Assembly: GCA_017455225.1 (NCBI GenBank)
Contig: JAFTBL010000042.1
Location: forward strand, 1-16,869
From: Oscillospiraceae bacterium
GTDB taxonomy: Bacteria; Bacillota_A; Clostridia; Oscillospirales; Oscillospiraceae
Direction: 5' to 3'
Length of the DNA: 16,869 bases
Shown here piece after piece: positions 43 through 16,869 of this stretch (its first letter is position 1; each line of letters starts with the position of its first letter). The notes under the pieces were generated by a model that was not told the DNA's origin, searched no databases, and worked only from the letters and a program-made list of their open reading frames with translations. Position numbers and translations under genes: made by a program.

Positions 43-50
43 GGGGAGGA
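43..50 (+). promoter_or_regulatory. Ribosome binding site of first permease
   Basis: GGGGAGGA lies 8 nt upstream of the ATG at 59. It overlaps the alternative in-frame ATG at 50, so it argues for translation starting at 59. No promoter is recognisable in the first 49 bases. A frame that closes with TAG at 54-56 could be the tail of an upstream gene, but it is too short to identify. Confidence 0.6.
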
Positions 51-58
51 TGGTAGAT

Positions 59-1081: not shown

Positions 1082-1097
1082 GGGAGGGACGACAGAC

Positions 1098-1982: not shown

Positions 1983-2028
1983 CGGCGCGGACGACACTCA
2001 CGCTTCAAATGGATAAGAGGGGTAATGG

Positions 2029-4416
2029 ATGAAACAAATCAGCTTAAACGGAGTTTGGCGCCTGTCCGGCGCGGGCTATGACTGCCAGGGCACGGTGCCC
2101 GGCTCGGTCTATTCCTTCCTGCTGGAGAGCGGGAAGATGGAGGATCCCTTTTACCGGCAGAACGAGCTGCAGGCGCTGCGGCTTATGGACAATGAATTCA
2201 CCTTTTCCCGCACCTTTGACTTCACACCCGACGGCCACAGGACGCTGCTGCGCTTTGAGGGACTGGACACTCTGTGCGACGTGTATCTCAACGGCAGCCA
2301 CGCGGCGTATACCGACAACATGCACCGCACCTATGAGCTTGACGTGACGGAGCTTCTGCGCTGCGGAGAAAACGAGCTGCGCGTCGTCTGCCACCCGCCC
2401 GTTCCTTATATCACGCGCAAGCAGAAGGAGGAGCGGCTGTATGAGCCATGGCACTGCACGGAGGGCGCCGGCCATATTCGCAAGGCGCACTGCATGCTGG
2501 GCTGGGACTGGGGCCCCCGTCTGCCGGATGCGGGCATCTGGAAGGACGTGAGCCTGCTGGTGCTGGACAGCGCCCGGATCACGGACCTGCGGATCGTGCA
2601 GCGCCATGAGGCGGGCCGGGTCTTTCTCACGCCCCTCGTCCAAACGGATCGCCCTGCGGCGGTAGATGTGACGGTGACGGCGCCGGACGGCGCCTGCTAT
2701 CCGCTCAGGAACGGGCAGGAGACGGAGATCCCTGACCCGCAGCTTTGGTGGCCCAACGGCCTGGGCGCACAGCCGCTGTATACCGTAACGGCGGAGTGTG
2801 AGGGCTGGCGGGAAACGCGCCGGATCGGCCTGCGCACGCTGCGGCTTGTGCGGGAGAAGGACAAATACGGTGAGAGCTTCTGCCACGAGGTGAACGGCGT
2901 CCGCTTTTTTGCCATGGGCGCCGACTATATCCCCGAGGACAACATCCTCTCCCGGGTCACGCCGGAAAAGACGTATCAGCTGATCCGCCGCTGCCGCGAC
3001 AGCCATTTCAACGCCATCCGCGTCTGGGGCGGCGGCATATATCCCCGTGACGCGTTCTTTGACGCCTGTGACGAGATGGGGCTGGTGGTGTTCCTCGACA
3101 TGATGGTGGCCTGCGTTACTGTCAGCAGCGAGGCGGCCATGAGGGAGAATATCGAGGCGGAGGTGCGGGACAATCTTTCCCGGATCCGGCATCACGCCTC
3201 GCTGGCCCTGATCAGCGGAAACAACGAGGTGGAGGAGATGTTTGCCTACGGCGAGGCAAAGGATCACCCCGCCATGGTGGAAACCTACCTCTATCTCTAC
3301 GAGGACATGATGCCCCGTGTGGTGGGCGAGCTGTGCCCCGACGTGTCCTATATCCCGTCCTCGCCCACCTCCTGCGGCCATTTTATCGATCCGCGCAACG
3401 AAAACGTGGGCGACGCTCACTACTGGGAGGTCTGGCACGGCGGGAAGCCGTTTACCGACTACCGAAACAAGTATTTCCGTTATTTGAGCGAGTTCGGCTT
3501 CCAATCCTTCCCCTGTGAAAAGACCATTCAGGCCTTTACCGCCGAGGAGGACAGGAACATTTTCAGCCGTGTGATGGAGATGCACCAGCGCAACGGAGAG
3601 GCCAACGGCAAAATTTTGAACTATCTGTCCCAGACCTATAAATACCCTGCCGAGTTGGGCACGCTGGCCTATGCCTCCCAGCTGCTGCAGGCGGAGGCCA
3701 TGCGCTACGGCGTGGAGCATCTGCGCCGTCACCGGGGCAGATGTATGGGCACGCTCTATTGGCAGCTCAACGATATCTGGCCCACCGCCTCGTGGTCCAG
3801 CATCGACTATTACGGGCGGCTGAAGGCGCTTCACTATGTGGCCGGACGCTTCTACAGCCCCGTGCTCATCAGCTGCAAGGAGACGGGGGAGCGCAGCACA
3901 CGGTATTTCCCCACGCTGGATCCGCGCGTGACCTATGAGACCAAGGCGCAGCTTTGCGTGACCAACGAGACCCGGCAGGACGTAACGGGCGTCGCGTCAT
4001 GGGCGCTGCGAAGCAACAGCGGCGCTGTTTTGCGTCAGGGCGAAACGGTGTTGACCGTGCCGGCGCTGACGTCGGTATGGCTGGAGGAGATGGAGTTCAC
4101 CGGGCTGGACGTGGATCGCACCTATGTCAGCTATGCGTTTGAGGCAGAGGGACAGACGCTCTCTGAGGGAACGGCGCTGTTCACCGTGCCCAAGTATTTC
4201 GACTTTCTCGATCCCCGGCTGACGTATGAGCTCCGCGGCAATGAGATCACCGTGTCTGCCGAGTCCTTTGCCTCCTACGTGGAGATCGACGCGCCGGATG
4301 CAGATATGGTGTTGAGTGACAATTATTTCGATATGAACGCAGGCTCCAAGACCGTGAAGATATTAGAGGGCCGGCCCGGAACCATCCGGCTGCGCTCCGT
4401 ATATGATATCCGATAG
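2029..4416 (+). CDS. Beta-mannosidase, glycoside hydrolase family 2
   Basis: This 795-aa enzyme should remove non-reducing beta-linked mannose from oligosaccharides by the retaining mechanism. It has no signal peptide, so it acts in the cytoplasm on imported substrate. The N-terminal sugar-binding domain contains the beta-mannosidase signature [17 protein letters not shown] (residues 158-174). The TIM barrel has [19 protein letters not shown] (331-349), the acid/base Glu400 in SGNNE, and the nucleophile Glu488 in [26 protein letters not shown] lies further on and is followed by beta-sandwich domains. The length matches the family. AGAGGGG at 2017-2023 precedes the ATG. Related GH2 activities such as exo-beta-glucosaminidase cannot be fully excluded, but the GWDWGP signature favours mannosidase. 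Its position directly after the permeases suggests the imported glycan carries beta-mannose, for example mannan fragments or an N-glycan core. Confidence 0.92.
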
Positions 4417-4430
4417 GGGAGGAGAACGCT

Positions 4431-4814
4431 ATGAAGCAAAGGGCAATCGCCGTTTTGCTGGGGCTGGTGAGCCTTTGCCTCTGCGCCTGCGGCGGGCAGA
4501 ACGAGTGCACGTGTGCGTGCGACTGTGATGCGTGCAGCTGCAGCCAGAAAGCGGATGCGGCGCCCGAGTCTGATCTGGCGTCTTATGCTTCCGGCGTGGA
4601 GTATACGGGTCAGCTTCGCAAGGAAGGCGTGTTCATCGGCTCCGTCTCCGAGGACGGCGCCACCATGCGGGTGGGTCACCGGGGCGGCGTCTGGGTCATG
4701 GACTGCGTAGAGGGCGTCCACGTGTACGACACGGTATGGGCGGTGATCGCGGACAGCGGTACACCCGATGACTTTACAGACGACGTCTTTGTGGCGTTTT
4801 TGCCCGAAGAATAA
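4431..4814 (+). CDS. Small putative lipoprotein with a cysteine cluster
   Basis: This 127-aa protein matches no family I recognise. The N-terminus is a lipoprotein signal: MKQR, a hydrophobic stretch, then a lipobox-like LCAC with the likely lipidated Cys20 (Cys16 and Cys18 are other possibilities). Immediately after it, residues 26-37 hold six cysteines in twelve positions (C26, 28, 30, 32, 35, 37), a pattern reminiscent of metallothioneins and metal-binding tails. An acidic/Ala-rich linker leads to a domain of about 80 residues that looks beta-rich, with GVFIGSV, MRVGHRGGVWVMD and VYDTVWAVI. GGGGAGGAG at 4417-4425 gives a strong start. The gene sits 14 nt after the beta-mannosidase and 16 nt before the next gene, so it is in the operon. 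Surface metal binding is inference from the cysteine pattern only. Confidence 0.8.
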   Translation: MKQRAIAVLLGLVSLCLCACGGQNECTCACDCDACSCSQKADAAPESDLASYASGVEYTGQLRKEGVFIGSVSEDGATMRVGHRGGVWVMDCVEGVHVYDTVWAVIADSGTPDDFTDDVFVAFLPEE

Positions 4815-4830
4815 CACAGGGGAAACACAG

Positions 4831-6357
4831 ATGAAGTCGATCAACGTAATGAACTTCGTCCGGGACGTGGACGAGCGGCTCCCCGCCGGGTCGGATATCC
4901 TCTACCGCGCCACCGAGTCGGAGCTGGCGCTGGTGAACGAATACGGCATTGAGAATACGTTTTTGCTGCAGTACGACGCGCTGTGTGACCCCCGCTATCA
5001 GGAGCTGTTTCGCAGCCGCGCCACAGAGCGGACGGAGCTGGGTCTCTGGTATGAGATCGTGGAGCCGCTGACCGCTGCCTGCGGCCTGCCCTATCGCAGC
5101 GAGATGGGCTGGAAGTGGGACTGGCACATTGTGCCGGGATTTTCCATGGCCTACACCCCTGAGCAGCGCCGCAGGCTGATCCGCGAGGCGATGCGGAAAT
5201 TCAAAGAGGTGTTCGGCTGTTATCCCAAAACGGTGGCCAGCTGGCTGATCGACACGGAAACGGTCAACGAATTGGTCGATCACTACGAGATCAGTGCGCT
5301 TGCCATCTGCCGCGACCAGACCAACTGCGACGCCTATACGCTGGTGGGCGGCTATTTCAATCAGGCGTATTATCCTTCACGCCGCAATATGTTCACCCCG
5401 GCGCAGACGGCGGCGATGCAAAACAAGGTGCCGGTGTTCCGGCTGCTGGGGCCCTGCCCTGTGCATAACTACGACGACGGGAAATACTGTGCCGACCCGA
5501 CGCTTCGTCCCCCCTATACGCTGGAGCCCGTGTGGCACAACGGCTCCGATCCACGCTGCGTGGACTGGAGCTTCAAGACCTATTTTCAAAACGAATCACT
5601 GGGCTTTGCCTATGCGCAGCTGGGACAGGAGAATTGCTTCGGCATGTACGACCTGGTCACCCCGCTGCGGATGCAGATCGAGAAGGCCCTGCGCTTGCCG
5701 GATGTGACCATTGAGAAGATGTCCGCCACGGGTGAGCGGTTCAAAAAGGCGTTTCCCCACGGCACCCCCGCCACCGCAGTGACGGCGCTGGACAGCTGGG
5801 ACGCCGGCGCGGAGCTTCAATCGGTTTATTACGATTGCCGCAACTATACGGCCAACCTTTTCCGCGCCGGGGGCCGGATCTTCTTCCGCTCGCTCTACCT
5901 GTTTGACGAGCATGTGGCGGATCTGTATCTGACGGAGCCGTGTACCACGCCGGCGAACGCGCTTTATGAAAATCTGCCCGTCGTGGACACCCTCGCTTGG
6001 AGCGGTGAGGAGAAGGAAAACTGCGGCTTGACGGTGGATGAGTGCACCGAACCCTTTACCGCCGAAAAAACGGCGGAGGGGATGCTGCGCGTTTCATGGA
6101 GCGGCGGCTCGGTGACCTTCGACGAAGAGGGGATCACGGTGTGCGCGCAGAAGCTGCATTTCCATGCAGGCGCCCCCCAGCCGCAGATCCGGCTGGAGGA
6201 CGGTGCGCTTTGCTATGAGTACAAGGGCACGGTCTACGCGCTGCGGATCGAAAACGCCTCGGTCACGGCGGCGGAGGACGGAGGTTTTGACGTCGTACCG
6301 GAGGGCCGGTGCAGGCTTTGCCCGGTGCGCGGCGGCCAGATGCAGAAGCTCGGCTGA
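4831..6357 (+). CDS. Uncharacterised 508-aa protein, possible polysaccharide-deacetylase-like barrel plus beta-rich C-terminus
   Basis: I do not recognise the family. There is no signal peptide or membrane helix, so it is probably cytosolic. Residues about 38-210 alternate strands and helices in a way that recalls NodB-type deacetylases and related glycoside hydrolase barrels: FLLQYDAL near 44-51, WKWDWHIVPGF at 94-104, an EQRRRLIREAMRKFKEVFG helix at 111-129, then TVASWLIDTETVNELVDHY (134-152), which resembles the 'climb to the next strand' segment of that superfamily. Residues from about 325 onward are beta-rich and could be an accessory domain. The start at 4831 is chosen because it follows AGGGGAA and leaves the lipoprotein gene intact. 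An earlier in-frame ATG at 4768 lies inside that gene. Its place between a glycosidase and a secreted GH123-like protein suggests glycan processing, but the reaction is unknown. Confidence 0.8.
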   Translation: MKSINVMNFVRDVDERLPAGSDILYRATESELALVNEYGIENTFLLQYDALCDPRYQELFRSRATERTELGLWYEIVEPLTAACGLPYRSEMGWKWDWHIVPGFSMAYTPEQRRRLIREAMRKFKEVFGCYPKTVASWLIDTETVNELVDHYEISALAICRDQTNCDAYTLVGGYFNQAYYPSRRNMFTPAQTAAMQNKVPVFRLLGPCPVHNYDDGKYCADPTLRPPYTLEPVWHNGSDPRCVDWSFKTYFQNESLGFAYAQLGQENCFGMYDLVTPLRMQIEKALRLPDVTIEKMSATGERFKKAFPHGTPATAVTALDSWDAGAELQSVYYDCRNYTANLFRAGGRIFFRSLYLFDEHVADLYLTEPCTTPANALYENLPVVDTLAWSGEEKENCGLTVDECTEPFTAEKTAEGMLRVSWSGGSVTFDEEGITVCAQKLHFHAGAPQPQIRLEDGALCYEYKGTVYALRIENASVTAAEDGGFDVVPEGRCRLCPVRGGQMQKLG

Positions 6358-6374
6358 AAGACCGACAGGAAAGT

Positions 6375-6380
6375 GGAGGG
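6375..6380 (+). promoter_or_regulatory. Ribosome binding site deciding a GTG start
   Basis: GGAGGG lies 7 nt before the GTG at 6388. The alternative GTG at 6373 overlaps this site and would put acidic and neutral residues before the lysine cluster of the signal peptide, so 6388 is the better start. Confidence 0.6.
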
Positions 6381-6387
6381 AAACGGA

Positions 6388-9300
6388 GTGAAGAAAAAAT
6401 TCGTCAGCACACTGCTGTGCGCGGCGCTCATACTTACCATGGCGGGGCCGGTCGGCGTCATAACCACGGCAGAAGCGGCCACCGGCACGTATTACGGCGA
6501 CGCGTCGTCGTGGAATACAGAGGGGCGCTGCCCGAAGGCGGAGGGACAGGTGTTCTCCGGCTGGTATCAGGACGTGTCGCTGCAGACCACGGTGGATGGC
6601 CCGGCGGACTTTGCCCCCGGCGCCTACGCCGCGTTTGCGGATGAAAACGTGCTGGGTGTGCGCTATCAGGTTGCCGGCGGCACCACCAAGGACAGCGACA
6701 AGACCAGCCTGCGGCTGGTAACGTCAGTAGATTCGCTGCGTTACCGCTCCGTGGGCTTCTCGGTGGAGATCAACGGCCGGGTGCAGACGCTGACCACCGA
6801 CAAGGTGTATAAAACCATTCAGGGCTATACGAAGGAGGACGGCGTGACCACCTATACGCCGGAGGAGTCCTTTACCGATACGTCCCGCTATTTCATGGCC
6901 TTTACGCTGCGGAATATCCCCAAGAGCGTTTTCGGCACCCCTATTCAGGTCACTGCCATATGGACCACGATGGACGGTACCGTCGTGTCGGGCAAGACCA
7001 GAACGGTGGTGCTTTACGGAGCCATGCAGGAGGATCTGCAGGACGCCACGGGCTATGGCCGGCTGTGGTCGGCACCCTCCACGGTGAAGATCGGAAAAGC
7101 GGAAACGGACTACGCCAACAAAGGCGCCCCGTCGCTTTCTTTCCGGGCGGTGCGCAATGAGTATGAAAGTGCCCAGCTGCTGCTTACGGCGGACAAGGCC
7201 GTCAGCTCCTTTGCGCTGTATCCCGGTGATCTGACCTGCGGCGGGAAAACCCTGCTGGCGGAGAATGTGGACGTATACGTACAAAAAAGCATCAACTACA
7301 ACGAGAGTGTTTATTCCTACGGCAGCGGCAGTATGCCGGATGCCCTGCTGCCCATGACGGCGGCGCAGCATTACGGGGAAAATACCGCCGCAGCCGGTAC
7401 CAACGGCGGCATGTGGGTCACGCTCTACGTGCCGAAGGACACACCCGCCGGCGTATATGAGGGCAGCTTTATCCTGCACGTTGCGGGCGCCGATGGCGAG
7501 GAGCTGGTCACTGTGCCTGTGTCGCTGGAGGTGCTGGACTATACGCTGGGCGACACACCCGCTGCCAAAACGCTGTTTTCATGGCGCTATGACCGCGTGG
7601 CGCCCGGTGAGCTGGACGGCAGCCTTGCCATGATGGAGCGGTACTACGAATTCTTCCGTGACTACCGTATCTCACTGCAGGCGCTGCCGCTGGGCACCCT
7701 GTCCGGCGAGGAGCTTGTCCGGGCTGTGGAGAAGTATTACGACACGTTGAGCACATATACGATCCTGTCCGAGGTGGGTGACATCTCCGGCTCGCTGCTG
7801 AGCCATACGGACGCGGCAAAGGAGCAGATCCTCGCCCTGGCAGCGGCCAGCACGCCTCAGCGAAATCTGCTGGACAAGGCCATGATCTATTTCATTGACG
7901 AGCCGGATATCACGGACGCGGAGACCCGGAATGCTGTGATCACATGGATCGACCAGCTCAATGCCATCCTTGACGAGTGCGTGCAGACCATCGCATCGGA
8001 TCAGACCGGACGGTACGATCAGTTTAAGCAGATCGACGGCTGGCAGAGCTGGGTGCGGGATATCCCCAACGTGATCCCCATCACAAAAGCGGATTGGCTG
8101 CTGAGCAACCAGAACGGCGATGCTAACGCGCTTCTGAACAAGATGAACGCGGTGTGCCTGCTGTTCGACGCCTTTACGCAGTCGCAGTCGTCCCGGATCC
8201 GCACGATGTGTGACACTTTCGGGCTGCACCTGTGGTGGTACGGCAACTCCACGCCGGGCAACCCCGCGCCCTCCTACCACGTTGCGGATACAAACCTGCT
8301 GAGCAGCCGCAGCGTTTCCTGGCTGCAGAGCAAATACGGCGTGGAGGGCAATCTCTACTGGGATGCGGCAGCCTATACGGATGAGGCGGCACAGACCTAT
8401 AACGAGTATATAGACGTATATGCGGGCGCCCACCGCAATACGGATGCCACCTGGGCTACGGGGGACGGCAATCTGACCTATCCCGGTGCGCCTTACGGAG
8501 TCTGCGGCCCCATTCCGTCCCTGCGTCTGATGAGCATCCGTGACGGCATGGAGGAGTACGAGCTGCTGCAGGCGGTGGAGGAAAAGCTGAACAGTCTGTC
8601 CTTCAGCGGCGGAACGCCCTCGGTGGCGGACGCTATGGAGTCGCTGTTCTATCGGCCGCTTTATACGGGCGATATGACTTCCGTAACGGCAGACGGGGCC
8701 AACGGCTTTGCGTTTTCTGCTCTGCGGCAGAAGCTGCTGGGTCTGCTGGTGAATCTGGACAGGGGACTGGGCTATACCATGGGCCCCATCACGACCACCT
8801 CCAGCCTTTTCAGTAACAAGGCGACCTTCACCTGCTACGTGCAGCCCGGCGCAACGCTGTCCATTGACGGCACAGCGGTCAGCTCCGGTACGTCCCGGCA
8901 GGTCACGCTGAGCAAAGCCGGTACGTCCGTGACCGTGACCGTCACCAAAGACGGAGAAACGGCTTCCTATACCCAGTATCTGGGCAAGTCCAATTCGCTG
9001 TTCGGCGCAGCGGCCGGCACGGCGCAGCCCGCTGCCCCTGCCGCCCCCGCTTCTGCCGCCCCCGCGGCAGGAAACGGCACGGCTCTGCTCTCCTTCGAGT
9101 CCTACGGGGAGATCACCGGCGCGGGCCTCCGGATGAGCAAGCTGCTGGGGCGCACGGAGATCAATACGGATCCGAGATATGTCACCGGCGGCGCTGCCTC
9201 GTGGATGATCCGGCCGGAGGGAGATTACGGCGATCCGAACGGCTATCCGTGGTTCCGTATGCGCTGTCCTGCCTTTGGTGCAGGAGACTTCAGCTCCTAC

Positions 9301-10143
9301 GGGAAGATCCTGATGGACGTATATAACGCGGGCGACGAGGCGGTGCTGCTCCGGTGGAGCTTCACCGTGGCGAACGGGAACGGCGAATACGTCGTACCGG
9401 ATGAGGTGTTCTGTGAACTGGCGCCCAATGAATGGACGGTCTGCTCCTACGATCTGACGGACGCAGTATACGATACGCTCTTTGATCTGACGGACGTAAA
9501 GTATATGACGGTTACGATCCTGAATAAGAAGGAGAGCCGGGAGGAGGTCCTGGCACCGCTTTACTTTGACTCACTGCGCGCCCAACCTCTGGAGGGCCAG
9601 CGCCACGCGGCGCAAAACAGCTTTGCGGCCGGTATTTCCTTTGACGGCCTGACCGATGCCGACGCCTTTGCCGTGGCGGAAGATCAGATGGTGCGCATGA
9701 CCGCCGTCCGGACGGATTATCGGGAAACACCCATGGCGGCGGCTGCCGCTGCGTTGGATCTGGGCACTCACTGCCTGCGCGCCGACGCCACCGGCAGCGT
9801 CTGGCCGGAACTGACGGTGACCTTTGACCGGACGTACGACCAAGGCAAGCTGTTGACGTTCTGGCTGTACGTGGCGGCGGATGAGTCTGCTGCCGCCGGC
9901 AAGACGTACCGCCTGGAGGCCTTCCGTCAGCGCAGCGGCACGGAGTACAAGGTGCTCAACGGCGATTGCCGGTTTAATCGCTGGGTGCAGATATCCATTG
10001 AGCTGGCGGAGGCCACGGATCACCTGTGGTACTTCATCAATCTGGACAACGGAGCCGGTGTCAGCAAGCTGGGTGCGGAGCAGGTGAGCGTCTATCTGGA
10101 TGAATTCCAGATCGTCGATAATACTTGGGGCCCGCTGAGCTGA
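6388..10143 (+). CDS. Large secreted DUF4091 / GH123-like protein with C-terminal carbohydrate-binding-like modules
   Basis: This 1251-aa exported protein starts with a signal peptide (MKKKF, a hydrophobic core, cleavage likely after AEA near residue 30). Domain order by eye: a fragment resembling the Flg_new/InlB-type repeat (FSGWYQD, around residue 55); a beta-rich domain with SLRLVTSVDSL; a beta-sandwich lead-in; then a GH123/DUF4091-type catalytic region. This contains FIDEPD with an adjacent Asp504-Glu505 pair, the arrangement used by GH123 beta-N-acetylgalactosaminidases, and the DUF4091 signature GDGNLTYPG plus GPIPSLRLMSIRDGMEEYE (about 692-725). A small beta-sandwich (SIDGTAVSSG) follows, then a Pro/Ala linker at about 873-896 and two jelly-roll-like modules (about 898-1068 and 1075-1248) that may bind sugars. 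No LPXTG anchor, SLH domain or dockerin is seen. Extracellular glycan cleavage is likely, and GalNAc specificity is only suggested. Confidence 0.85.
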   Translation: MKKKFVSTLLCAALILTMAGPVGVITTAEAATGTYYGDASSWNTEGRCPKAEGQVFSGWYQDVSLQTTVDGPADFAPGAYAAFADENVLGVRYQVAGGTTKDSDKTSLRLVTSVDSLRYRSVGFSVEINGRVQTLTTDKVYKTIQGYTKEDGVTTYTPEESFTDTSRYFMAFTLRNIPKSVFGTPIQVTAIWTTMDGTVVSGKTRTVVLYGAMQEDLQDATGYGRLWSAPSTVKIGKAETDYANKGAPSLSFRAVRNEYESAQLLLTADKAVSSFALYPGDLTCGGKTLLAENVDVYVQKSINYNESVYSYGSGSMPDALLPMTAAQHYGENTAAAGTNGGMWVTLYVPKDTPAGVYEGSFILHVAGADGEELVTVPVSLEVLDYTLGDTPAAKTLFSWRYDRVAPGELDGSLAMMERYYEFFRDYRISLQALPLGTLSGEELVRAVEKYYDTLSTYTILSEVGDISGSLLSHTDAAKEQILALAAASTPQRNLLDKAMIYFIDEPDITDAETRNAVITWIDQLNAILDECVQTIASDQTGRYDQFKQIDGWQSWVRDIPNVIPITKADWLLSNQNGDANALLNKMNAVCLLFDAFTQSQSSRIRTMCDTFGLHLWWYGNSTPGNPAPSYHVADTNLLSSRSVSWLQSKYGVEGNLYWDAAAYTDEAAQTYNEYIDVYAGAHRNTDATWATGDGNLTYPGAPYGVCGPIPSLRLMSIRDGMEEYELLQAVEEKLNSLSFSGGTPSVADAMESLFYRPLYTGDMTSVTADGANGFAFSALRQKLLGLLVNLDRGLGYTMGPITTTSSLFSNKATFTCYVQPGATLSIDGTAVSSGTSRQVTLSKAGTSVTVTVTKDGETASYTQYLGKSNSLFGAAAGTAQPAAPAAPASAAPAAGNGTALLSFESYGEITGAGLRMSKLLGRTEINTDPRYVTGGAASWMIRPEGDYGDPNGYPWFRMRCPAFGAGDFSSYGKILMDVYNAGDEAVLLRWSFTVANGNGEYVVPDEVFCELAPNEWTVCSYDLTDAVYDTLFDLTDVKYMTVTILNKKESREEVLAPLYFDSLRAQPLEGQRHAAQNSFAAGISFDGLTDADAFAVAEDQMVRMTAVRTDYRETPMAAAAAALDLGTHCLRADATGSVWPELTVTFDRTYDQGKLLTFWLYVAADESAAAGKTYRLEAFRQRSGTEYKVLNGDCRFNRWVQISIELAEATDHLWYFINLDNGAGVSKLGAEQVSVYLDEFQIVDNTWGPLS

Positions 10144-10153
10144 AGCACGGGTC

Positions 10154-10205
10154 ATGCAGCGTATACGGCGTCTGTCCGCACCGCCGTATACGCTGCGTTG
10201 GTTTT
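10154..10205 (+). terminator. Strong hairpin, probable intrinsic terminator or attenuator
   Basis: A perfect 15-bp inverted repeat (10156-10170 with 10182-10196, arms GCAGCGTATACGGCG and its complement) encloses an 11-nt loop and is followed by GTTGGTTTT. The stem is strong but the T tract is interrupted, so termination may be partial. It begins 12 nt after the stop codon of the large secreted protein gene. Only 23 nt separate the T tract from the next start codon. Confidence 0.7.
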
Positions 10206-10215
10206 GCGACGCGAG

Positions 10216-10224
10216 AGGAGGGGG
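10216..10224 (+). promoter_or_regulatory. Ribosome binding site deciding the yesL-like GTG start
   Basis: AGGAGGGGG ends 4 nt before the GTG at 10229 (7 nt from the AGGAGG core). It supports this start over the in-frame ATG at 10154, which would place the hairpin inside the coding sequence. Confidence 0.65.
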
Positions 10225-10228
10225 AACG

Positions 10229-10879
10229 GTGCAGAGTCCGTCGAGATATGATTCGCCGCTGTTCAGCTTTGTAAACCGGATCGCGGATCTGGTCTGGCTG
10301 AATGTGCTGACGGTGCTGGGCTGCCTCGGCGTGGTCACGGCACCTGCCTCTCTCACCGCCTGTCATTATGCCGCGCGCAAGCTGCTGCGAGGTGAGTCCT
10401 ACGTAACAGCCAATTTTCGCAAGGCGTTTCGGGAAAATCTGCTGCAGGCGGGCCTGCTGGGTCTTGTGCTGGCGGCGGCGTGCCTGATCACGGGGCTCGT
10501 ATTCCTGTTCTCACCGTCGTTCTTCGGCGGGGCGCTGCTGGCCATGGTACGGGGCTTTGCGGCATTCATCGAGCTGGGGCTTCTGGCGGTGGGCGTGTGG
10601 CTGTTTCCGCTGCAGGCAGGCTTTCACTACCGCTTTTCCGACAGCTTGTTCAATGCGTATGTTCTGGCTGTCAGACAGCTGCCCCGCACAGCGGCCATGA
10701 TCGCCTTGTGGGTCGTGCCGGCGTTGATGCTCTGCAGCGCGCGGATCAGCTGGCTGCTGGTGTTTTTGCTGCTGGGACTGTCTGTGCCCACGTATCTGTG
10801 TGCCCGACTGTACAGGCGGGTGTTCGACGCGCTGGAGGCGGAGATAGCGGCCAGACAGGAGAAAGAGCGGGAAACATAA
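10229..10879 (+). CDS. YesL-like membrane protein, DUF624 family
   Basis: This 216-aa membrane protein of the DUF624 family has the characteristic opening YDSPLFSFVNRIADLVWLN, then VLTVLGCLGVVTAPASLTACHY and a GESYVTANFRKAFREN cytoplasmic segment. Five or so hydrophobic helices follow, and a charged C-terminal tail. The family is named after Bacillus subtilis YesL, which is encoded beside a polysaccharide-type sugar ABC importer. Its molecular role is not established. The same association with CUT1 permeases occurs here, 8 kb downstream of the two permease genes. The start is the GTG at 10229, directed by AGGAGGGGG. The length is normal for the family. The gene follows a strong hairpin with no space for its own promoter, so expression probably depends on readthrough or on a promoter inside the upstream gene. 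Confidence 0.9.
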   Translation: MQSPSRYDSPLFSFVNRIADLVWLNVLTVLGCLGVVTAPASLTACHYAARKLLRGESYVTANFRKAFRENLLQAGLLGLVLAAACLITGLVFLFSPSFFGGALLAMVRGFAAFIELGLLAVGVWLFPLQAGFHYRFSDSLFNAYVLAVRQLPRTAAMIALWVVPALMLCSARISWLLVFLLLGLSVPTYLCARLYRRVFDALEAEIAARQEKERET

Positions 10880-10933: not shown

Positions 10934-12100
10934 ATGGCAAACACAGTGAAGGCGGCTGTTCTGACGGCGCCGAGGACCATCGAGCTGCAGGAGTTCCCCT
11001 ATCCCGCGCTGCCTAAGGGCGGCGCTATCATCCGCACAGAGTTGTCCGGCATCTGCGGCACGGATAAACACACATTCAAGGGTGAGATCCGTCAGTACGC
11101 TGGCACGGCGCAGGAAATCACCACGCCTTTCCCCATTATTCAGGGTCACGAGAACGTGGGCATTATCGAGGAGATCACGGAGGAGGGCAAGCGCAAGCTG
11201 GAATTTGACGGCGAGGAGCTTCACGTAGGCGACCGGGTGGTCATGTGCCCGGACACGGTGTGCGGCGAGTGCTGGTTTTGCAAGCATATCCCGGACTATC
11301 CGTGGTGCAACGAGATCCGCTCCTACGGCAACTCCTTTTCCTGCAAAAACCCGCCCCATCTTTTCGGCGGCTTTTCCCAGTACATGGCCATCATCGACCG
11401 GGTAAAGCTCTACAAGGTGCCGGAGGGGATGAAACCGGAGGTGGCGGTGTTTGCAGAGCTCTTTGACGTAACGTATTCTCTTGACAAGGCCAAGGAGCTA
11501 TACGCATTTGACGGCGAGGGCTTTGCCTTCGGTGACACGGTGGTGATTTTGGGCGCCGGGCCGCTGGGCATCATGCACCTTATCAAGGCGCGTATGCTGG
11601 GCGCCGATCAGGTCATCATGACCGACACGTCCCCCTTCCGGCTTGCTTTTGCCAAGCAGTTTGGCGCCGATCTGACCCTGTGCCTCGCAGATACTACGCT
11701 GGAGGAGCGGGTCGATCTGGTCAGGCAGCGTACCGGCGGCCGCGGTGCGGACGTGGTGGTGGAGTGTGCCGGCGAACCGGAGGCGTTTCCGGAGGGGCTG
11801 CAGATGGTTCGCAAGGCGGGCACCTATCTGATCGTCGGCAACTTCGTGGACGTGGGGCGCACGGTGGAGCTCAAGCCCCATGAGATCTGCTCCAAGAACG
11901 TGCGTATTATGGGTATGTCCAACCACTCCATCTCCGGCTACCGTCCGTCGCTTCGGATGATGCAGCGGTATCAGGATCAGTTCCCCTTTGATAAACTGAT
12001 CACCCACCGCTTCGGCTTGGCGGAGGCGGAAAAGGCGCTGTATACAGCCATGGATTACAGCGCCAGCATGAAGGTGGTCTTTGACCCGTGGAAGAAGTAA
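10934..12100 (+). CDS. Zinc-dependent medium-chain alcohol/polyol dehydrogenase
   Basis: This 388-aa cytosolic oxidoreductase belongs to the zinc-containing MDR (sorbitol/threonine dehydrogenase-like) superfamily and should oxidise a hydroxyl or a hemiacetal with a nicotinamide cofactor. Catalytic zinc ligands are visible as Cys41 (GICGTDKH), His72-Glu73 (GHENVG) and Glu175 in FAELFD. The structural zinc lobe is C110-x2-C113-x2-C116-x8-C125, one residue wider than the usual last spacing of seven. The Rossmann motif is LGAGPLG (206-212), and Asp231 at the end of the second strand suggests NAD rather than NADP. GGAGG 9-10 nt upstream sets the ATG. It leads a tight cluster: the GAPDH homologue starts 28 nt after it. 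The substrate is unknown. Candidates are an aldose (oxidised to a lactone), a cyclitol such as myo-inositol, or a sugar alcohol. Confidence 0.9.
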   Translation: MANTVKAAVLTAPRTIELQEFPYPALPKGGAIIRTELSGICGTDKHTFKGEIRQYAGTAQEITTPFPIIQGHENVGIIEEITEEGKRKLEFDGEELHVGDRVVMCPDTVCGECWFCKHIPDYPWCNEIRSYGNSFSCKNPPHLFGGFSQYMAIIDRVKLYKVPEGMKPEVAVFAELFDVTYSLDKAKELYAFDGEGFAFGDTVVILGAGPLGIMHLIKARMLGADQVIMTDTSPFRLAFAKQFGADLTLCLADTTLEERVDLVRQRTGGRGADVVVECAGEPEAFPEGLQMVRKAGTYLIVGNFVDVGRTVELKPHEICSKNVRIMGMSNHSISGYRPSLRMMQRYQDQFPFDKLITHRFGLAEAEKALYTAMDYSASMKVVFDPWKK

Positions 12101-12128
12101 GGGCGAGAAAAACGAGGAGGCAATACAT

Positions 12129-13184
12129 ATGGCAAAGATCAAGGTGGGCGTGGCGGGCTACGGCACCATCGGCCAGCGGCTGGCGGACGGTGTGGCGCTG
12201 CAGGAGGACATGGAGCTGGTGGGCATTGCGGATCTGGCGCCCACGCTGGCCATCCGCGCCCTGCGGGAGAACGATATGGTGGGCGTGAACGGCGTAACGT
12301 ATCACCTCTATCTGGTGGACGGGGCGGACAAGTCCGCCTTTGCCGCCTACGATATCCCGGTAGCGGGCAGCTTTGAGGAACTGTGCGGCAAGGTGGACAT
12401 CATGCTGGATTCCTCTCCCGGCGGCGTGGGCGCCAAGAACAAGGCGCTTTACGAGAAGCTGGGCGTCAAGGCCGTTTTTCAGGGCGGCGAAAAGAACTCC
12501 GTGGCGGACGTGTTTTTCCACGGCTACGCCAACTATGAAAAGGGACTGGGGCAGAACTATCTGAAGCTGACCAGCTGCAATACCACCGGCCTCATCCGCA
12601 CGGTGGACTGCCTCGACCGGGCTTACGGCGTTTCCAAGGTGGCCATCACCATCATCCGCCGCGTGGCCGATCCCGGCGATTATCACCGGGGTCTTACCAA
12701 CGCTCTGCAGATGGACAAGGCACCCAGCCATCAGGCAGTGGACCTGATGACCATCATGCCCCACATCGAGGCCACCGGCATTCTGGTGCATACCCCCGTG
12801 ACCCACGGCCACATCATCACCGTGCTGGCCAGCGGCAGGGACGGGCGCAAGATCACCCGTGACCAGGCCATCGCCGCCTTCCGCGCCCACCCCCGCATCC
12901 GCACCGTCACCGTGGACGAGGGCTTTTTGGGCAACGCCAGCTTCTTCAAATACGCCCGGGATCTGGGCAATCGCCGGGGCGACCTGTATGAGATCGGCCT
13001 GTGGGAGGACAGCGTGGTGGAAAGCGGCAACGACGTCATGTACGCCATCCACATCCCGCAGGAGAGCGTGACCATCCCGGAGACCATCGACGCGGTGCGC
13101 GCCGCCATGCGGATGCAGCCCACCCGGGAAGAGGGCACCGCCATGACCAACAAGTATCTGAAGATCGGACGGTTCAAGAAGTAA
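12129..13184 (+). CDS. Type II (archaeal-type) glyceraldehyde-3-phosphate dehydrogenase homologue
   Basis: This 351-aa protein aligns along its whole length, by memory of the family, with archaeal phosphorylating GAPDH and not with bacterial GapA. It has the Rossmann start VGVAGYGTIGQRLADGV (6-22), FQGGEK (117-122), the catalytic Cys150 in TSCNTTGLIRT, RRVADPGDYHRG (177-188), the probable catalytic His226/His228 in TPVTHGH, and GLWEDSV near the C-terminus. Archaeal enzymes usually have a Thr/Lys stretch after the second strand, whereas here Asp35 (VGIADLAP) suggests NAD. The chemistry should be reversible interconversion of an aldehyde and an acyl phosphate. GAGGAGG at 12114-12120 fixes the ATG at 12129; an earlier in-frame ATG (12081) lies inside the dehydrogenase gene. 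It is followed after 13 nt by an archaeal-type PGK, which makes a functional pair likely. The substrate need not be glyceraldehyde 3-phosphate. Confidence 0.9.
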   Translation: MAKIKVGVAGYGTIGQRLADGVALQEDMELVGIADLAPTLAIRALRENDMVGVNGVTYHLYLVDGADKSAFAAYDIPVAGSFEELCGKVDIMLDSSPGGVGAKNKALYEKLGVKAVFQGGEKNSVADVFFHGYANYEKGLGQNYLKLTSCNTTGLIRTVDCLDRAYGVSKVAITIIRRVADPGDYHRGLTNALQMDKAPSHQAVDLMTIMPHIEATGILVHTPVTHGHIITVLASGRDGRKITRDQAIAAFRAHPRIRTVTVDEGFLGNASFFKYARDLGNRRGDLYEIGLWEDSVVESGNDVMYAIHIPQESVTIPETIDAVRAAMRMQPTREEGTAMTNKYLKIGRFKK

Positions 13185-13197
13185 GGGGATAAAAGCC

Positions 13198-14454
13198 ATG
13201 CGATTTGGGATCAGAACGCTGGACGAGGTGTCGCTGCAGGGCAAAACGGTGCTGTGCCGGGTGGACATCAACCAGCCGGTGGATCGGGAGAGGGGCATGC
13301 TGAAAAGCACCAACCGCATCCGCGCCTGCGTGCCCACCGTGCGGGAGTTGTCCGACAGGGGCGCCAGGGTGGTGCTGCTGGCCCATCAGGGCAGCGACAT
13401 CGAGTATCAGAATTTTTACACCACGAAGCCCCACGCAGCCGTTTTGTCGGAGCTGCTGGGCCGGGAGGTGCAATGGATCGACGACGTGTGCGGCCCGGCG
13501 GCGCGGGAGAAGATCCGCGCGCTGGCGGACGGGGAGATCCTGCTGCTGGACAACGTGCGTTTTGTGTCCGAGGAGCAGACGCTGTTTGAAAAGAAGCTGC
13601 GCCTGAGCCACGAGGAGCAGGCCAAAACGCTGCTGGTGGAGAAGCTGGCGCCGCTGGCGGAGCTCTACGTGTGCGACGCCTTTGCCGCCGCCCACCGGGA
13701 TCAGCCCAGCCTGTGCGGCTTCGAGCAGGTGCTGCCCTCCGCCATGGGGCGGCTCTTTGAGCGGGAATACTGCGCTGTGTCGCAGGTGATGGAATCGCCG
13801 GAGCGCCCCTGCGTGTTCGTGCTGGGCGGGGCGAAGATCGCAGACGCCTTCGCCATGATGGATACCGTGCTGACGCGGGGTGTGGCGGATCGGATCCTCA
13901 CCGGCGGACTGGTGGCCAACATCTTTTTGCTGGCGCTGGGTCATGCCATCGGCGAGGGCAGCGCGGAATTCATCCGCAAGTCCAACTACGAAGAGTATTA
14001 CGAAAAGGCAAAGGCGCTCTACGACCGCTTCGGCCACCGGATCGCGCTGCCCGCAGACCTTGCGTGGCTCTCTGGCGGGGAACGGCGTGAAGCGGGCGTC
14101 GACGCCATGCCGGAGCAGGCCGCCGCGGTGGACATCGGCGAGAAGACGGCGAAAGCGTACCGCGAGGCGATCCTGCAGGCCGGAACGGTGTTCGTCAACG
14201 GCCCCATGGGAGTGTTCGAGCAGGCGGCCAGTGAGCACGGGACAAAAACTGTTTGGCAGGCGCTGGCGGATACGGCGGGCTACACCGTCCTCGGCGGCGG
14301 CGACAGCATCACCGCCACGGAGAAGTACGGTCTGACGGAGCAGATGGGTTACATCTGCACCGGCGGCGGCGCGCTGATCCGCTTTTTGAGCGGGGAAGAG
14401 CTGCCGGTGGTGCGGGCCCTGCGCCACGGCTCGCAGATCGCGGAGAAGGTGTGA
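13198..14454 (+). CDS. Archaeal-type phosphoglycerate kinase homologue
   Basis: This 418-aa cytosolic kinase belongs to the PGK family and resembles the archaeal subgroup. It would transfer phosphate between ATP and a carboxylate to make or consume an acyl phosphate. Conserved elements are RVDIN (Arg21, Asp23, Asn25), Arg40/Arg42, AHQG with His63, DNVRF with Arg121, AFAAAHRDQPS with Arg167, GGAK with Lys213, NGPMGVFE (334-341) for the nucleotide, and GGGDS (366-370). The basic patch for 3-phosphoglycerate is incomplete: the Arg of the usual H-x-G-R-P motif is Ser66, followed by DIEYQNF. The second lysine after GGAK in bacterial and eukaryotic PGKs is Ala217. The nucleotide half is intact, so the protein looks active but possibly with another acid as substrate. 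It lies 13 nt after the GAPDH homologue and 4 nt before the LarA homologue. Confidence 0.88.
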   Translation: MRFGIRTLDEVSLQGKTVLCRVDINQPVDRERGMLKSTNRIRACVPTVRELSDRGARVVLLAHQGSDIEYQNFYTTKPHAAVLSELLGREVQWIDDVCGPAAREKIRALADGEILLLDNVRFVSEEQTLFEKKLRLSHEEQAKTLLVEKLAPLAELYVCDAFAAAHRDQPSLCGFEQVLPSAMGRLFEREYCAVSQVMESPERPCVFVLGGAKIADAFAMMDTVLTRGVADRILTGGLVANIFLLALGHAIGEGSAEFIRKSNYEEYYEKAKALYDRFGHRIALPADLAWLSGGERREAGVDAMPEQAAAVDIGEKTAKAYREAILQAGTVFVNGPMGVFEQAASEHGTKTVWQALADTAGYTVLGGGDSITATEKYGLTEQMGYICTGGGALIRFLSGEELPVVRALRHGSQIAEKV

Positions 14455-14458
14455 GGTC

Positions 14459-15745
14459 ATGAAGCTGGAGTTCGGTTACGGCCATACCACCCAGACGGTG
14501 GAGGTGCCGGAGAAAAACCTGCTGGCGGTGCTGACCGCCAACCCCATGGCCCATGAGCGCCGAGGGGAGGAAGCCGTCCGCTGGGCGCTGGATCACCCCA
14601 TCGGCAGCCGTCCCCTTCACGCGCTGGCGCGGCCGGGGCAGAAGGTGGCGATCATCACCAGCGACGTGTCCCGCCCCCTGCCCAGCTATGAGGTGCTGCC
14701 CGCCGTGCTGGACGAGCTGTACCGGGCGGGGGTTGCAAAGGAGGACGTCACCGTGGTGCTGGCGCTGGGCAGCCACCGCCGCCACACGGAGGACGAGCGG
14801 CGCCGTCTGGTGGGCGAGCGGTGCTGGAACGAGGTGCGGGTGGAGGACAGCGACCCGGCGGACTGTGTGCGCATGGGGATCACCTCCCGGGGCACGCCGG
14901 TGGATATCACCCGCACGGTGGCACAGGCGGATCTCCGCATTTGCCTCGGCAACATCGAGTTCCACTATTTTGCCGGCTACTCCGGCGGCGCCAAGGCATT
15001 GATGCCCGGTGTTTCCACGCCGGAGGCCATCCAGTGCAATCACCGTATGATGGTGTCGCCGGATGCCTGCGCCGGCAAGCTGGAGGGCAACCCCATCCGC
15101 GCCGACATCGAGGAGGCGGAGCGCCTTTGTCCCGTCGGCTTCATCGTCAACGCCGTGCTGGACGAGCACAAGCGCATCGTGTACGCCGTGGCGGGCGACG
15201 TGACGCAGGCCCACCGGGCGGGCTGCCGGTATCTGGATCAGATGTACCGCAAGCCCATCCCTCGCCGGGCGGATATCGTGCTGGTCAGTCAGGGCGGCGC
15301 CCCCAAGGACGCCAATCTCTACCAGACCCAGAAGGCACTGGAAAATGCCAAGTACGCGGTGAAAGAGGGCGGCACCGTCATTGTCATCGGCGCGTGCCCG
15401 GAGGGACTGGGCAGCGCCAAATTCGAGGAGTGGCTGACGCGCTCGCCCTCCGCCCGCCACATGGTGGAGCGGATCGGACGGGATTTTGAATTGGGCGGCC
15501 ACAAGGCTGCCGCCATCGGCATGGTGCTGGAGCACGCCCGCATCGATCTGGTGTCGGAGATGCCGGATGATTTTGTCCGCAGCATCTTCCTCTATCCGCA
15601 GCCCTCGGCGCAGGCCGCCTTTGACGAGGCCATGGCGCGCTATGGGGAAAACGCCTCCGTCATCGCCATGCCCTTCGGCGGCGCCACGCTGCCTGTCGTG
15701 GAGAGGAATATGCCTTTTGAAGGAGGAGCAGAGTATGTTCGATAG
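14459..15745 (+). CDS. LarA-family nickel-dependent 2-hydroxyacid racemase/epimerase
   Basis: This 428-aa enzyme belongs to the lactate racemase (LarA) superfamily, which inverts the 2-hydroxyl carbon of hydroxyacids using a nickel-pincer nucleotide covalently bound to lysine. Visible motifs are SDVSRPLP with Arg72 for the carboxylate, ALGSHRRHT with the proton-transfer His106, GNIEFHYFAGYSGGAKALMPG with His169 and the cofactor Lys179, and CNH with the nickel ligand His195. The spacings His169-Lys179-His195 (10 and 16) equal those of Lactiplantibacillus plantarum LarA (His174, Lys184, His200). The family also includes malate and aldonate (gluconate) epimerases, so lactate should not be assumed. 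Cofactor synthesis genes larB, larC and larE are not in the window. It starts 4 nt after the PGK homologue and overlaps iolE by 11 nt, so translation is probably coupled. Confidence 0.9.
   Translation: MKLEFGYGHTTQTVEVPEKNLLAVLTANPMAHERRGEEAVRWALDHPIGSRPLHALARPGQKVAIITSDVSRPLPSYEVLPAVLDELYRAGVAKEDVTVVLALGSHRRHTEDERRRLVGERCWNEVRVEDSDPADCVRMGITSRGTPVDITRTVAQADLRICLGNIEFHYFAGYSGGAKALMPGVSTPEAIQCNHRMMVSPDACAGKLEGNPIRADIEEAERLCPVGFIVNAVLDEHKRIVYAVAGDVTQAHRAGCRYLDQMYRKPIPRRADIVLVSQGGAPKDANLYQTQKALENAKYAVKEGGTVIVIGACPEGLGSAKFEEWLTRSPSARHMVERIGRDFELGGHKAAAIGMVLEHARIDLVSEMPDDFVRSIFLYPQPSAQAAFDEAMARYGENASVIAMPFGGATLPVVERNMPFEGGAEYVR
15720..15726 (+). promoter_or_regulatory. Ribosome binding site of iolE inside the LarA-family gene
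   Basis: A perfect AAGGAGG lies within the last codons of the LarA-family gene, 8 nt before the ATG at 15735. It decides that start over an in-frame ATG far upstream (15486) and shows that iolE is translated through an overlap with its neighbour. Confidence 0.7.
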
Positions 15746-16637
15746 CCATAAGGTTCAGTTGGGCATCGCGCCCATCGGCTGGTGCAACGACGATATGCCG
15801 GAGCTGGGGGCGGAAAATACCTTCCGCCAGATCGTCAGTGAAATGGCGCTGGCGGGCTATGCCGGCTGTGAGATCGGCAACAAGTTTCCCACCGATCCGG
15901 TGGAGCTGCGCCAGCAGCTGGCGCTGCGGGATCTGCGGGTGGCCAGCCGCTGGTACTCATCCCTTCTTCTGACAAGGCCACTGGAGGAGGAGATCGCGGA
16001 CTTTACGGCGCATCTTGATTTTCTGGCTGCCGTGGGCGCCGACCGGATCAACGTCAGCGAGCAAAGCGGCTCCATTCAAGGGCAGATGGACACCCCCATC
16101 CTCACAGGCTCCCACAAGCCGGTGATGGATGAGCCGCAGTGGCAGCGCTTTGCCGCCGGGCTGAACGAGCTGGGGCGCATTGCCTGCGCCCGCGGCTTCA
16201 AGCTGTGCTACCACCACCATATGGGCACTGTGGTGCAAACGGCGGCGGAGACGGATCGGCTGATGGCCATGACCGATCCCCGGTACGTGTTTTTGTGCTA
16301 CGACACGGGTCACTTTACCTTTGCCGGGGAGGACCCCTTGGCCATACTGCAAAAGTATGTCCACCGGGTGGGCCACGTGCATTTGAAGGATATGCGCCTC
16401 CACGTGGTGGAGAAGGCACGCCGGGAAAACTGGAGTTTTCTGCGCTCTGTAAAGGAAGGTGCCTTTACAGTGCCCGGCGACGGTGACGTGGAGTTCGATC
16501 CGGTGTTCCGGTCGCTCTCCGAGGCGGGCTATCAAGGCTGGCTGCTGGTGGAGGCGGAGCAGGATCCCGCCAAGGCAGACCCGCTGGTCTGCGCCATGAA
16601 GGGCCGGGCCTATATCCGGCAGCATACGGGACTGTAA
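15735..16637 (+). CDS. iolE: Myo-inosose-2 dehydratase (IolE)
   Basis: This 300-aa TIM-barrel protein matches IolE closely. In inositol catabolism IolE dehydrates 2-keto-myo-inositol (scyllo-inosose) to a dihydroxy-cyclohexanedione. Family hallmarks are LGIAPIGWCNDDMPELG (9-25), EMALAGYAGCEIGNKFP, VSEQSGSIQG (107-116), YHHHMGTVVQT (159-169), CYDTGHFTFAGEDP (188-201), GHVHLKDMRL (213-222), VPGDGDVEFDP and EAEQDPAKADP (273-283). Likely metal and catalytic residues include Glu109, His162, Asp190, His193, His216 and Glu273, assigned by position and not by structure. The length is usual. It overlaps the LarA-family gene by 11 nt and is followed 12 nt later by an IolB-like gene. Some IolE relatives act as sugar-acid epimerases, for example in the Thermotoga inositol pathway, but the strong hallmark match favours the dehydratase. 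Confidence 0.93.
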   Translation: MFDSHKVQLGIAPIGWCNDDMPELGAENTFRQIVSEMALAGYAGCEIGNKFPTDPVELRQQLALRDLRVASRWYSSLLLTRPLEEEIADFTAHLDFLAAVGADRINVSEQSGSIQGQMDTPILTGSHKPVMDEPQWQRFAAGLNELGRIACARGFKLCYHHHMGTVVQTAAETDRLMAMTDPRYVFLCYDTGHFTFAGEDPLAILQKYVHRVGHVHLKDMRLHVVEKARRENWSFLRSVKEGAFTVPGDGDVEFDPVFRSLSEAGYQGWLLVEAEQDPAKADPLVCAMKGRAYIRQHTGL

Positions 16638-16649
16638 GGAGGGTGGAGC

Positions 16650-16869
16650 ATGACGTATTTTGAGAAAAGCGCCCTGCAGCGGGGCTACAACGCCTATTTA
16701 AGCGCGGAAAACAACTATATGGCCACCGGTATGAACGTGGGGCTTGTGGTGCTGGAGCCCTGCGACGTCTACACCTATGAAAGCCGCGACAGGGAAGTGG
16801 CGATCCTGCTGCTTGAGGGGGCGGTGCGTTATGCGTGGAACGACCGTACGGCGGAGGCCGTGCGCCCGG
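16650..16869 (+). CDS. iolB: IolB-like 5-deoxy-glucuronate isomerase, N-terminal part (cut by window end)
   Basis: Only the first 73 codons are present, and the gene runs off the window. The start is firm: AAGGAGGG at 16636-16643 precedes the ATG. The visible part is the first beta-strands of a cupin: residues about 27-45 (GMNVGLVVLEPCDVYTYES) followed by REVAILLLEGAVRYAW, which matches the early core of IolB/KduI-type isomerases (a charged 'EVAxLLLSG' strand pair). IolB isomerises 5-deoxy-glucuronate to 2-deoxy-5-keto-gluconate, downstream of IolE and IolD in inositol catabolism. The metal-binding His/Glu motif lies beyond the window and cannot be checked, so a related sugar-acid isomerase remains possible. 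The position 12 nt after iolE supports the assignment. Confidence 0.72.
   Translation, partial: MTYFEKSALQRGYNAYLSAENNYMATGMNVGLVVLEPCDVYTYESRDREVAILLLEGAVRYAWNDRTAEAVRP

Follow-up and report, generated by a model that had tools for sequence, protein, structure and literature searches.

A putative lower branch of inositol breakdown that would replace IolC by GAPDH, PGK and malate racemase homologues in gut and rumen Clostridia and Spirochaetes

The window analysed here, a stretch of 16,869 nt from an Oscillospiraceae bacterium (contig JAFTBL010000042.1), carries a run of genes encoding a zinc-dependent medium-chain dehydrogenase/reductase (MDR dehydrogenase), a type II, archaeal-type glyceraldehyde-3-phosphate dehydrogenase (GAPDH-II), a phosphoglycerate kinase (PGK) homologue and a LarA homologue (Table 1). 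As the run extends into IolE and an IolB homologue, we regard it as an inositol operon. It probably encodes an alternative lower branch of inositol breakdown, which would replace the kinase IolC and proceed via transketolase, GAPDH-II, PGK, LarA and malic enzyme. Gene content, linkage, family signatures, the exclusion of IolC and an altered PGK site were observed directly. An earlier note on this DNA had read the first four genes as an aldose C2-epimerisation pathway. Its gene positions and gaps of 28, 13 and 4 nt were confirmed by the open reading frames (ORFs) and its family assignments by Pfam and NCBIfam models; the four genes are real, but the run was ended one gene early, since IolE and the IolB homologue follow.

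We surveyed 297 genomes, evenly drawn from the order of genome G001 and representing relatives of the window rather than its own genome, by genome-wide searches for IolE, GAPDH-II, IolC, PGK, type I GAPDH (GAPDH-I) and the malate racemase group LarAH6. IolE was over cut-off in 43 genomes, GAPDH-II in 19 and IolC in 28. Among the 43 IolE-bearing genomes, 25 carried IolC and 18 GAPDH-II, with none having both and none having neither. GAPDH-II without IolE occurred in G111 (plus a below-cut-off fragment in G075), and IolC without IolE in G052, G095 and G204. Concordantly, IolC was over cut-off in none of 20 and none of 50 further genomes carrying the module; matches below the cut-off, of up to 199.2 bits, were present in all 20 genomes of the smaller set. 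Five genomes (G001, G002, G004, G017 and G231) occur in the survey and also in the 20- or 50-genome sets.

The two kinds of IolE-bearing genomes also differ in their complement of related genes. A second PGK was detected in 16 of the 18 genomes with GAPDH-II (missing in G017 and G287) versus none of the 25 with IolC, and LarAH6 over cut-off in 14 of 18 versus none of 25, G295 having a LarAH6 match of 331 bits that stayed under the cut-off. GAPDH-I was found in 17/18 and 24/25 genomes, respectively. This coexistence of GAPDH-I and a second PGK makes it unlikely that GAPDH-II and the module PGK serve glycolysis. In most of these relatives, the pair is thus not the sole GAPDH and PGK, a case that the earlier note had considered, and its proposal that the two enzymes act on a non-canonical carboxylate gains support from these copies as well as from the altered PGK site described below. 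In 7 of the 18 genomes, no more than a few kb separate GAPDH-II from IolE; the remaining 11 have GAPDH-II far from IolE or on another contig, paired with a second type of PGK. As the pair is unlinked to the iol genes in these 11, the exclusion of IolC does not result from linkage alone. Such second-type pairs outside iol loci (L113-L116, L118-L120, L122-L124) are about 70% (GAPDH) and about 44% (PGK) identical to those of the window, and LarA follows PGK in L119 and L120. Genome G198 (L117) unites within 13 kb IolE, IolB, IolD, two IolG-like proteins, GAPDH, PGK, LarA, malic enzyme and both halves of a split transketolase (TktN and TktC).

Scanning genome contigs with the window GAPDH yielded 446 relatives, of which the best 80 (81-90% identical) defined loci L001-L080. 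Nearly all of these derive from metagenome-assembled genomes; most have titles naming Clostridia, Clostridiales, Oscillospiraceae or Lachnospiraceae, and four have titles naming Spirochaetes or Spirochaetales. Neighbours were located by tblastn with named proteins, whose families had been assigned in example loci by curated models. Many loci are truncated by contig ends; 40 whose flanks extend 2 kb or more upstream and 8 kb or more downstream of GAPDH were considered well covered. Of these, 38 contained PGK, 36 LarA, 35 IolE, 35 IolB, 34 IolD, 27 TktN, 27 TktC, 25 IolG and 19 malic enzyme. The corresponding counts for all 80 loci were 72 (PGK), 62 (LarA), 47 (IolE), 47 (IolB), 42 (IolD), 49 (TktN), 47 (TktC), 39 (IolG) and 28 (malic enzyme), and in 18 loci GAPDH, PGK, TktN, TktC, LarA, malic enzyme, IolE, IolB and IolD were encoded together on a single strand. 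In 71/80 loci, PGK was the first module gene to follow GAPDH on its strand, a pairing far beyond chance. The window order GAPDH-PGK-LarA-IolE plus IolB recurred in L005, L020, L023, L030, L041, L044 and L056, all without transketolase or malic enzyme match. Of the co-occurrence that the earlier note had proposed to look for, PGK and LarA were recovered beside GAPDH, but not the MDR dehydrogenase, which had matches of only 26-30% identity in 3 of the 80 loci.

In the example loci IolG (450.9, cut-off 355), IolE (408.4, cut-off 290) and IolD (889.8, cut-off 715) exceeded their cut-offs. The IolB/KduI homologue reached 152.3 with Pfam, yet only 91.3 with TIGR04378 (cut-off 205). Its counterpart in the classical operon L159 scored only 101.4, so that this low value is no peculiarity of the module. 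Malic enzyme passed the Pfam cut-offs (113.7 and 92.1 versus 23.1 and 23.5) and stayed under those of NCBIfam; the two transketolase genes passed Pfam, each half remaining under the full-length NCBIfam cut-offs. As a side observation, a 520-aa metalloenzyme/iPGM-domain protein encoded beside IolG and GAPDH (L053, 7323-8891) was present in 25/80 loci, often accompanied by HAD-type hydrolases; it perhaps removes phosphate from inositol phosphates. In L035, from a genome without IolE, the neighbours resembled by eye a pyruvate/acetoin dehydrogenase set.

As controls, we inspected 19 kb around IolE in 20 of the 25 IolC-bearing genomes, counting matches of at least 75 bits. None of these 20 loci matched GAPDH-II, PGK, LarA, malic enzyme or transketolase, and 19 contained IolC with IolB, IolD, IolE and IolG; the exception, L163, had IolE only, its IolC being on another contig. 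For comparison, 10.7-19.5 kb around IolE were searched in the 11 genomes with unlinked GAPDH-II. IolC was found in none of these iol loci, and IolB, IolD, IolE and IolG in nine; L165 had IolE and a weak IolG2 match only, and L166, cut by a contig end, lacked IolB. In genome G031 an 83%-identical MDR dehydrogenase of the window type heads the operon IolC-IolD-IolB-IolE-IolG-IolA (L159), in which IolC scored 372.5 (cut-off 300) and the IolA-type dehydrogenase 584.9 with TIGR01722 (cut-off 448.5). Compared with this operon, the window looks as if GAPDH-PGK-LarA had been swapped in for the kinase gene. Since L159 holds IolG as well, the MDR dehydrogenase is probably no simple stand-in for IolG, and its part in the pathway is putative.

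The substrate sites were compared in alignments, with the H-x-G-R/K loop and the other substrate positions of PGK numbered as we take them to be in characterised enzymes. In all 30 housekeeping copies the loop ends in Arg (21) or Lys (9). This residue is replaced by Ser in 70/70 non-gapped of 71 type-1 module rows, the window included, and by Asp in 10/10 type-2 rows. The archaeal PGK 2cun, the best solved relative of the window PGK by sequence, retains Lys at this position in the alignment. The other substrate positions compared are invariant (Asp, Asn, Arg36, His59, Arg118, Arg151 and Lys197), so that the presumed 3-phosphoglycerate site of the window PGK is incomplete at the loop, with the rest kept. 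Mean identity of module to housekeeping PGKs was 37.4% (type 1) and 35.0% (type 2). In GAPDH-II, 92/92 rows retain the catalytic Cys as well as the THGH-motif His, and several further positions that are fixed in four archaeal enzymes differ in all 92. Position 35 is Asp in 88 rows and Gly in 4, versus Lys in the four solved archaeal enzymes, and this Lys-to-Asp change suggests the use of NAD. An Asp had been claimed for both dehydrogenases; it stands for GAPDH, and in the MDR dehydrogenase was seen only on reading the translation. The coexisting GAPDH-I and second PGK and the altered PGK site suggest that the module GAPDH and PGK are specialised for substrates other than the glycolytic ones.

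The catalytic and NPN-cofactor residues of LarA are conserved in 65/65 rows and the His-Lys pair for malate in 64/64 non-gapped of these rows, both including the window, whose LarA has Y172, F173, H350 and K351. The D-gluconate 2-epimerase of the LarA superfamily is described, in the available part of PMC11770544, with the substrate residues E, V, A and H, which the window LarA lacks. The protein is thus of the malate racemase type, with its activity predicted, and does not carry the gluconate epimerase signature. Malate-type residues are also present in three spirochaete proteins that are 34-36% identical; in the spirochaete operons L042, L051 and L060 such a distant LarA stands after IolD and not after PGK. 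Action of LarA on 3-phosphoglycerate, an option considered at first, was dropped once transketolase, malic enzyme and iol genes emerged nearby.

Together, these genes would form the following pathway, for which we infer every substrate, all activities and the direction from sequence. Inositol dehydrogenase, IolE, IolD and IolB would lead to 2-deoxy-5-keto-D-gluconate (DKG). Read from its CH2OH end, we take DKG to be a D-threo 2-ketose, resembling xylulose 5-phosphate except that CH2-COO- stands where the latter has CH2-OPO3; the stereochemistry is derived from the configurations of DKG and malate as we presume them to be. The transketolase encoded in many sister operons could transfer the two-carbon ketol of DKG to a sugar-phosphate aldehyde, leaving (R)-malic semialdehyde, which would be the carboxylate analogue of D-glyceraldehyde 3-phosphate. 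GAPDH-II would convert this aldehyde with NAD and phosphate to D-malyl phosphate and NADH, PGK would form D-malate and ATP, LarA would turn D-malate into L-malate, and malic enzyme would yield pyruvate. A racemase would be needed before malic enzyme, since the aldehyde formed from DKG would have the R configuration and so yield D-malate. The pathway probably runs in an oxidative direction with a gain of ATP, the reverse of the reductive, ATP-consuming one previously suggested. The aldolase and the semialdehyde dehydrogenase that act after IolC would be replaced too; IolA was seen in the IolC-type operon L159 only, no genome-wide search for it having been made. The branch is likely to be a carboxylate copy of lower glycolysis, in which transketolase, GAPDH and PGK homologues accept CH2-COO- for CH2-OPO3, with a natural D-malyl phosphate, substrate-level ATP formation and a racemase-dependent exit to L-malate, replacing the kinase branch in gut and rumen Clostridia and in Spirochaetes.

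Several observations weigh against this pathway. The window itself contains neither a transketolase nor a malic enzyme gene, and among the well-covered loci 13/40 lack the transketolase pair and 21/40 malic enzyme. Of the 32 genomes with an IolE-less locus, 17 hold IolE elsewhere over cut-off, but 14 have no IolE match at all and one has fragments only. Oscillibacter valericigenes An411 (L027), with GAPDH-II and PGK but no LarA seen in its locus, is among those with IolE elsewhere. The exclusion between IolC and GAPDH-II has a Fisher p of 1.6e-12 that is uncorrected for relatedness. A tree of housekeeping PGKs was built for the 30 best-scoring of the 43 genomes, with 15 genomes of each kind. 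The best tree shows 6 switches of the IolC/GAPDH-II label, and starred branches at least 4; all 4 independent pairs point in the expected direction (p 0.125), and with only 4 pairs significance is unreachable by pairs alone. LarAH6 was not found in G017, G244, G266 and G306 of the 18 GAPDH-II genomes. G017, in which GAPDH-II lies between IolG and IolE (L009) and LarC is present, also lacks the module PGK, and this locus is possibly a reduced or intermediate form. LarC, which inserts the nickel of the LarA cofactor, is absent from 16/19 and 20/50 genomes of relatives, so that the check on larC co-occurrence proposed in the earlier note was positive in 3/19 and 30/50 only; TIGR00299 and PF01969 detected it in the same 3 genomes of the 19. 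Scavenging of the cofactor, substitution of another protein for LarC or gaps in the assemblies could account for this. Finally, the PGK change would also suit a substrate with a hydroxyl instead of a carboxylate group, and the Asp in the type-2 loop would not obviously pair with a carboxylate.

The loci without linked transketolase (13/40) would also be accommodated if the same replacement branch ran through another C3/C4 semialdehyde; an unphosphorylated aldolase might, for example, cut DKG to malonate semialdehyde, from which GAPDH-II and PGK would form malonate and ATP, with LarA and malic enzyme serving other malate. This retains the IolC exclusion and an oxidative GAPDH/PGK step. It leaves unexplained the split transketolase (27/40), malic enzyme (19/40) and the malate-type LarA (36/40 loci; 64/64 non-gapped rows), and no aldolase was noticed in the loci, although none was specifically sought; we consider it unlikely. 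That GAPDH-II and PGK are extra glycolytic or gluconeogenic copies acting on glyceraldehyde 3-phosphate and 3-phosphoglycerate, co-regulated with inositol use, is suggested by the glycolytic names of the family models and by the retention of most PGK substrate residues. The exclusion of IolC would then be unexplained, Arg/Lys is lost in 80/80 non-gapped module PGKs, and GAPDH-I and a second PGK coexist with the pair. On account of the IolC exclusion and the PGK site we rejected this very unlikely explanation as the principal one.

The module might also process other inositol- or uronate-derived 5-keto-hexonates, such as D-fructuronate or D-tagaturonate, to tartrate-type acids. In L078, from one of the 14 IolE-free genomes, GAPDH-II, PGK, split transketolase and an MDR dehydrogenase stand beside IolN (275.8, cut-off 245), an IolO-like protein (272.9, cut-off 300) and UxaE, and the available part of PMC11770544 reports weak action of malate racemases on tartrate. 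The L078 locus has no LarA, however, and most loci carry IolE, IolB and IolD, which lead to DKG, the window itself carrying IolE and the start of IolB. As a general account this is highly improbable; in genomes of the IolN/IolO type, the same enzymes may convert 5-keto-hexonates to tartrate-type products. The loop of the earlier note, in which LarA would invert C2 of an oxidised aldose and the product, once phosphorylated, would be reduced to the C2-epimeric aldose, is extremely improbable. Its steps are chemically compatible in this sequence, some LarA homologues accept mannonate according to PMC11770544, and a GH2 beta-mannosidase-like gene lies upstream. Nothing was found that ties the gene set to mannose or to this gene, and the loop leaves no place for IolE, IolB and IolD, transketolase or malic enzyme. 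The LarA residues, the inositol context with its exclusion of IolC, and the dehydrogenase orthologue at the head of a classical operon with IolC and IolA led us to reject it. A lower inositol branch through D-malate thus remains our preferred explanation.

Table 1. Genes of the run in the window, with proposed functions and family evidence.
Feature	Position	Strand	Evidence
Zinc MDR dehydrogenase, head of run, inositol-linked	10934-12100	+	Pfam ADH_N, ADH_zinc_N
Type II (archaeal-type) GAPDH; proposed NAD-dependent phosphorylating D-malic semialdehyde dehydrogenase	12129-13184	+	NF003251 383.6 bits (cut-off 185); TIGR01546 285.7 (cut-off 232.9)
PGK homologue; proposed D-malyl phosphate:ADP phosphotransferase	13198-14454	+	Pfam PGK (PF00162) 386 bits (cut-off 27); residues 8-400 cover profile 1-379 of 379
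LarA homologue, malate racemase LarAH6 group; proposed D-malate to L-malate	14459-15745	+	NF052593 542.5 bits (cut-off 500)
IolE, myo-inosose-2 dehydratase	15732-16637	+	TIGR04379 404.8 bits (cut-off 290)
IolB homologue (5-deoxy-glucuronate isomerase), start only, cut by window end	16650-16869	+	By analogy; translation resembles IolB homologues of L053 and L055 (Pfam KduI/IolB in L055)

The ORFs of LarA and IolE overlap by 14 nt. The MDR dehydrogenase scored above no NCBIfam cut-off and has no close solved relative, the best being 1vj0 with 181 bits. IolD, present in 34/40 well-covered sister loci, was not seen in the window. The block upstream of the run (50-10879) encodes two ABC permeases, the GH2 beta-mannosidase-like enzyme, a DUF624/MusI-like protein, a 127-aa protein without Pfam match, a 1256-aa protein with weak GH123-type matches and a 507-aa protein (4834-6357) without any Pfam or NCBIfam match; no tie of this block to the inositol genes was found.

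Inositol is released from phytate and is widely available as a source of carbon in the diet and in soil. If the proposed pathway is correct, it would add a natural acyl phosphate and an ATP-forming step that are, as far as we know, new, provide a physiological role for LarAH6 malate racemases and explain why these genomes have a second GAPDH and PGK. Fermentation routes from inositol would be predicted to differ, running through malate, and whereas the kinase branch presumably spends one ATP on DKG, the module would gain one. Two papers on inositol use (PMC9430895 and PMC8355322) describe, in their available parts, the route after IolB via IolC, the latter also via IolJ. Among the matches listed, we found no description of the present route in the open-access literature, preprints and most subscription journals lying outside this scope, and inositol breakdown via malate, with relatives of glycolytic enzymes gaining energy, looks like an undescribed route of gut bacteria. 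In the available part of PMC9430895, an inositol cluster is counted when at least three of IolB, IolC, IolD and IolE are present, and a missing fourth is attributed to incomplete assemblies, errors or frameshifts; under this counting rule the module branch would stay hidden in plain sight.

The classical inositol pathway of Bacillus and others (IolG, IolE, IolD, IolB, IolC, IolJ and IolA) shares with the window IolE, over cut-off, and with the sister operons IolD and IolG, over cut-off, as well as IolB homologues; in L159, an operon of this kind starts with the same dehydrogenase. It differs in having IolC, which among these relatives is absent from 70/70 module genomes and from 18/18 in the order survey, and in whose place the module has GAPDH-II, PGK and LarA, often with transketolase and malic enzyme. 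The Thermotoga-type pathway, which we take to run through IolM, IolN, IolO and UxaE in that organism, shares IolN, the IolO-like protein and UxaE, plus the MDR dehydrogenase, with a single module locus, L078, and is unlike most module loci, which carry IolE, IolB and IolD. By sequence, archaeal GAPDH-II and PGK are the closest families to the module pair, from which they differ in GAPDH Lys35 versus Asp and in the PGK loop, Arg/Lys versus Ser or Asp. The malate racemase LarAH6/MAR2 of Thermoanaerobacterium (PMC7583248) shares its family model and its cofactor, catalytic and malate residues with the window LarA; the available part of that paper leaves its in vivo role open, whereas a D-malate-producing pathway is proposed here for the module LarA. 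In carnitine breakdown, conversion of malic semialdehyde via D-malate to pyruvate is established, as described in the available part of PMC11353897. The proposed branch would share these intermediates but reach them with other enzymes, carnitine breakdown using a non-phosphorylating aldehyde dehydrogenase and D-malate dehydrogenase, and the module GAPDH-II, PGK, a racemase and malic enzyme.

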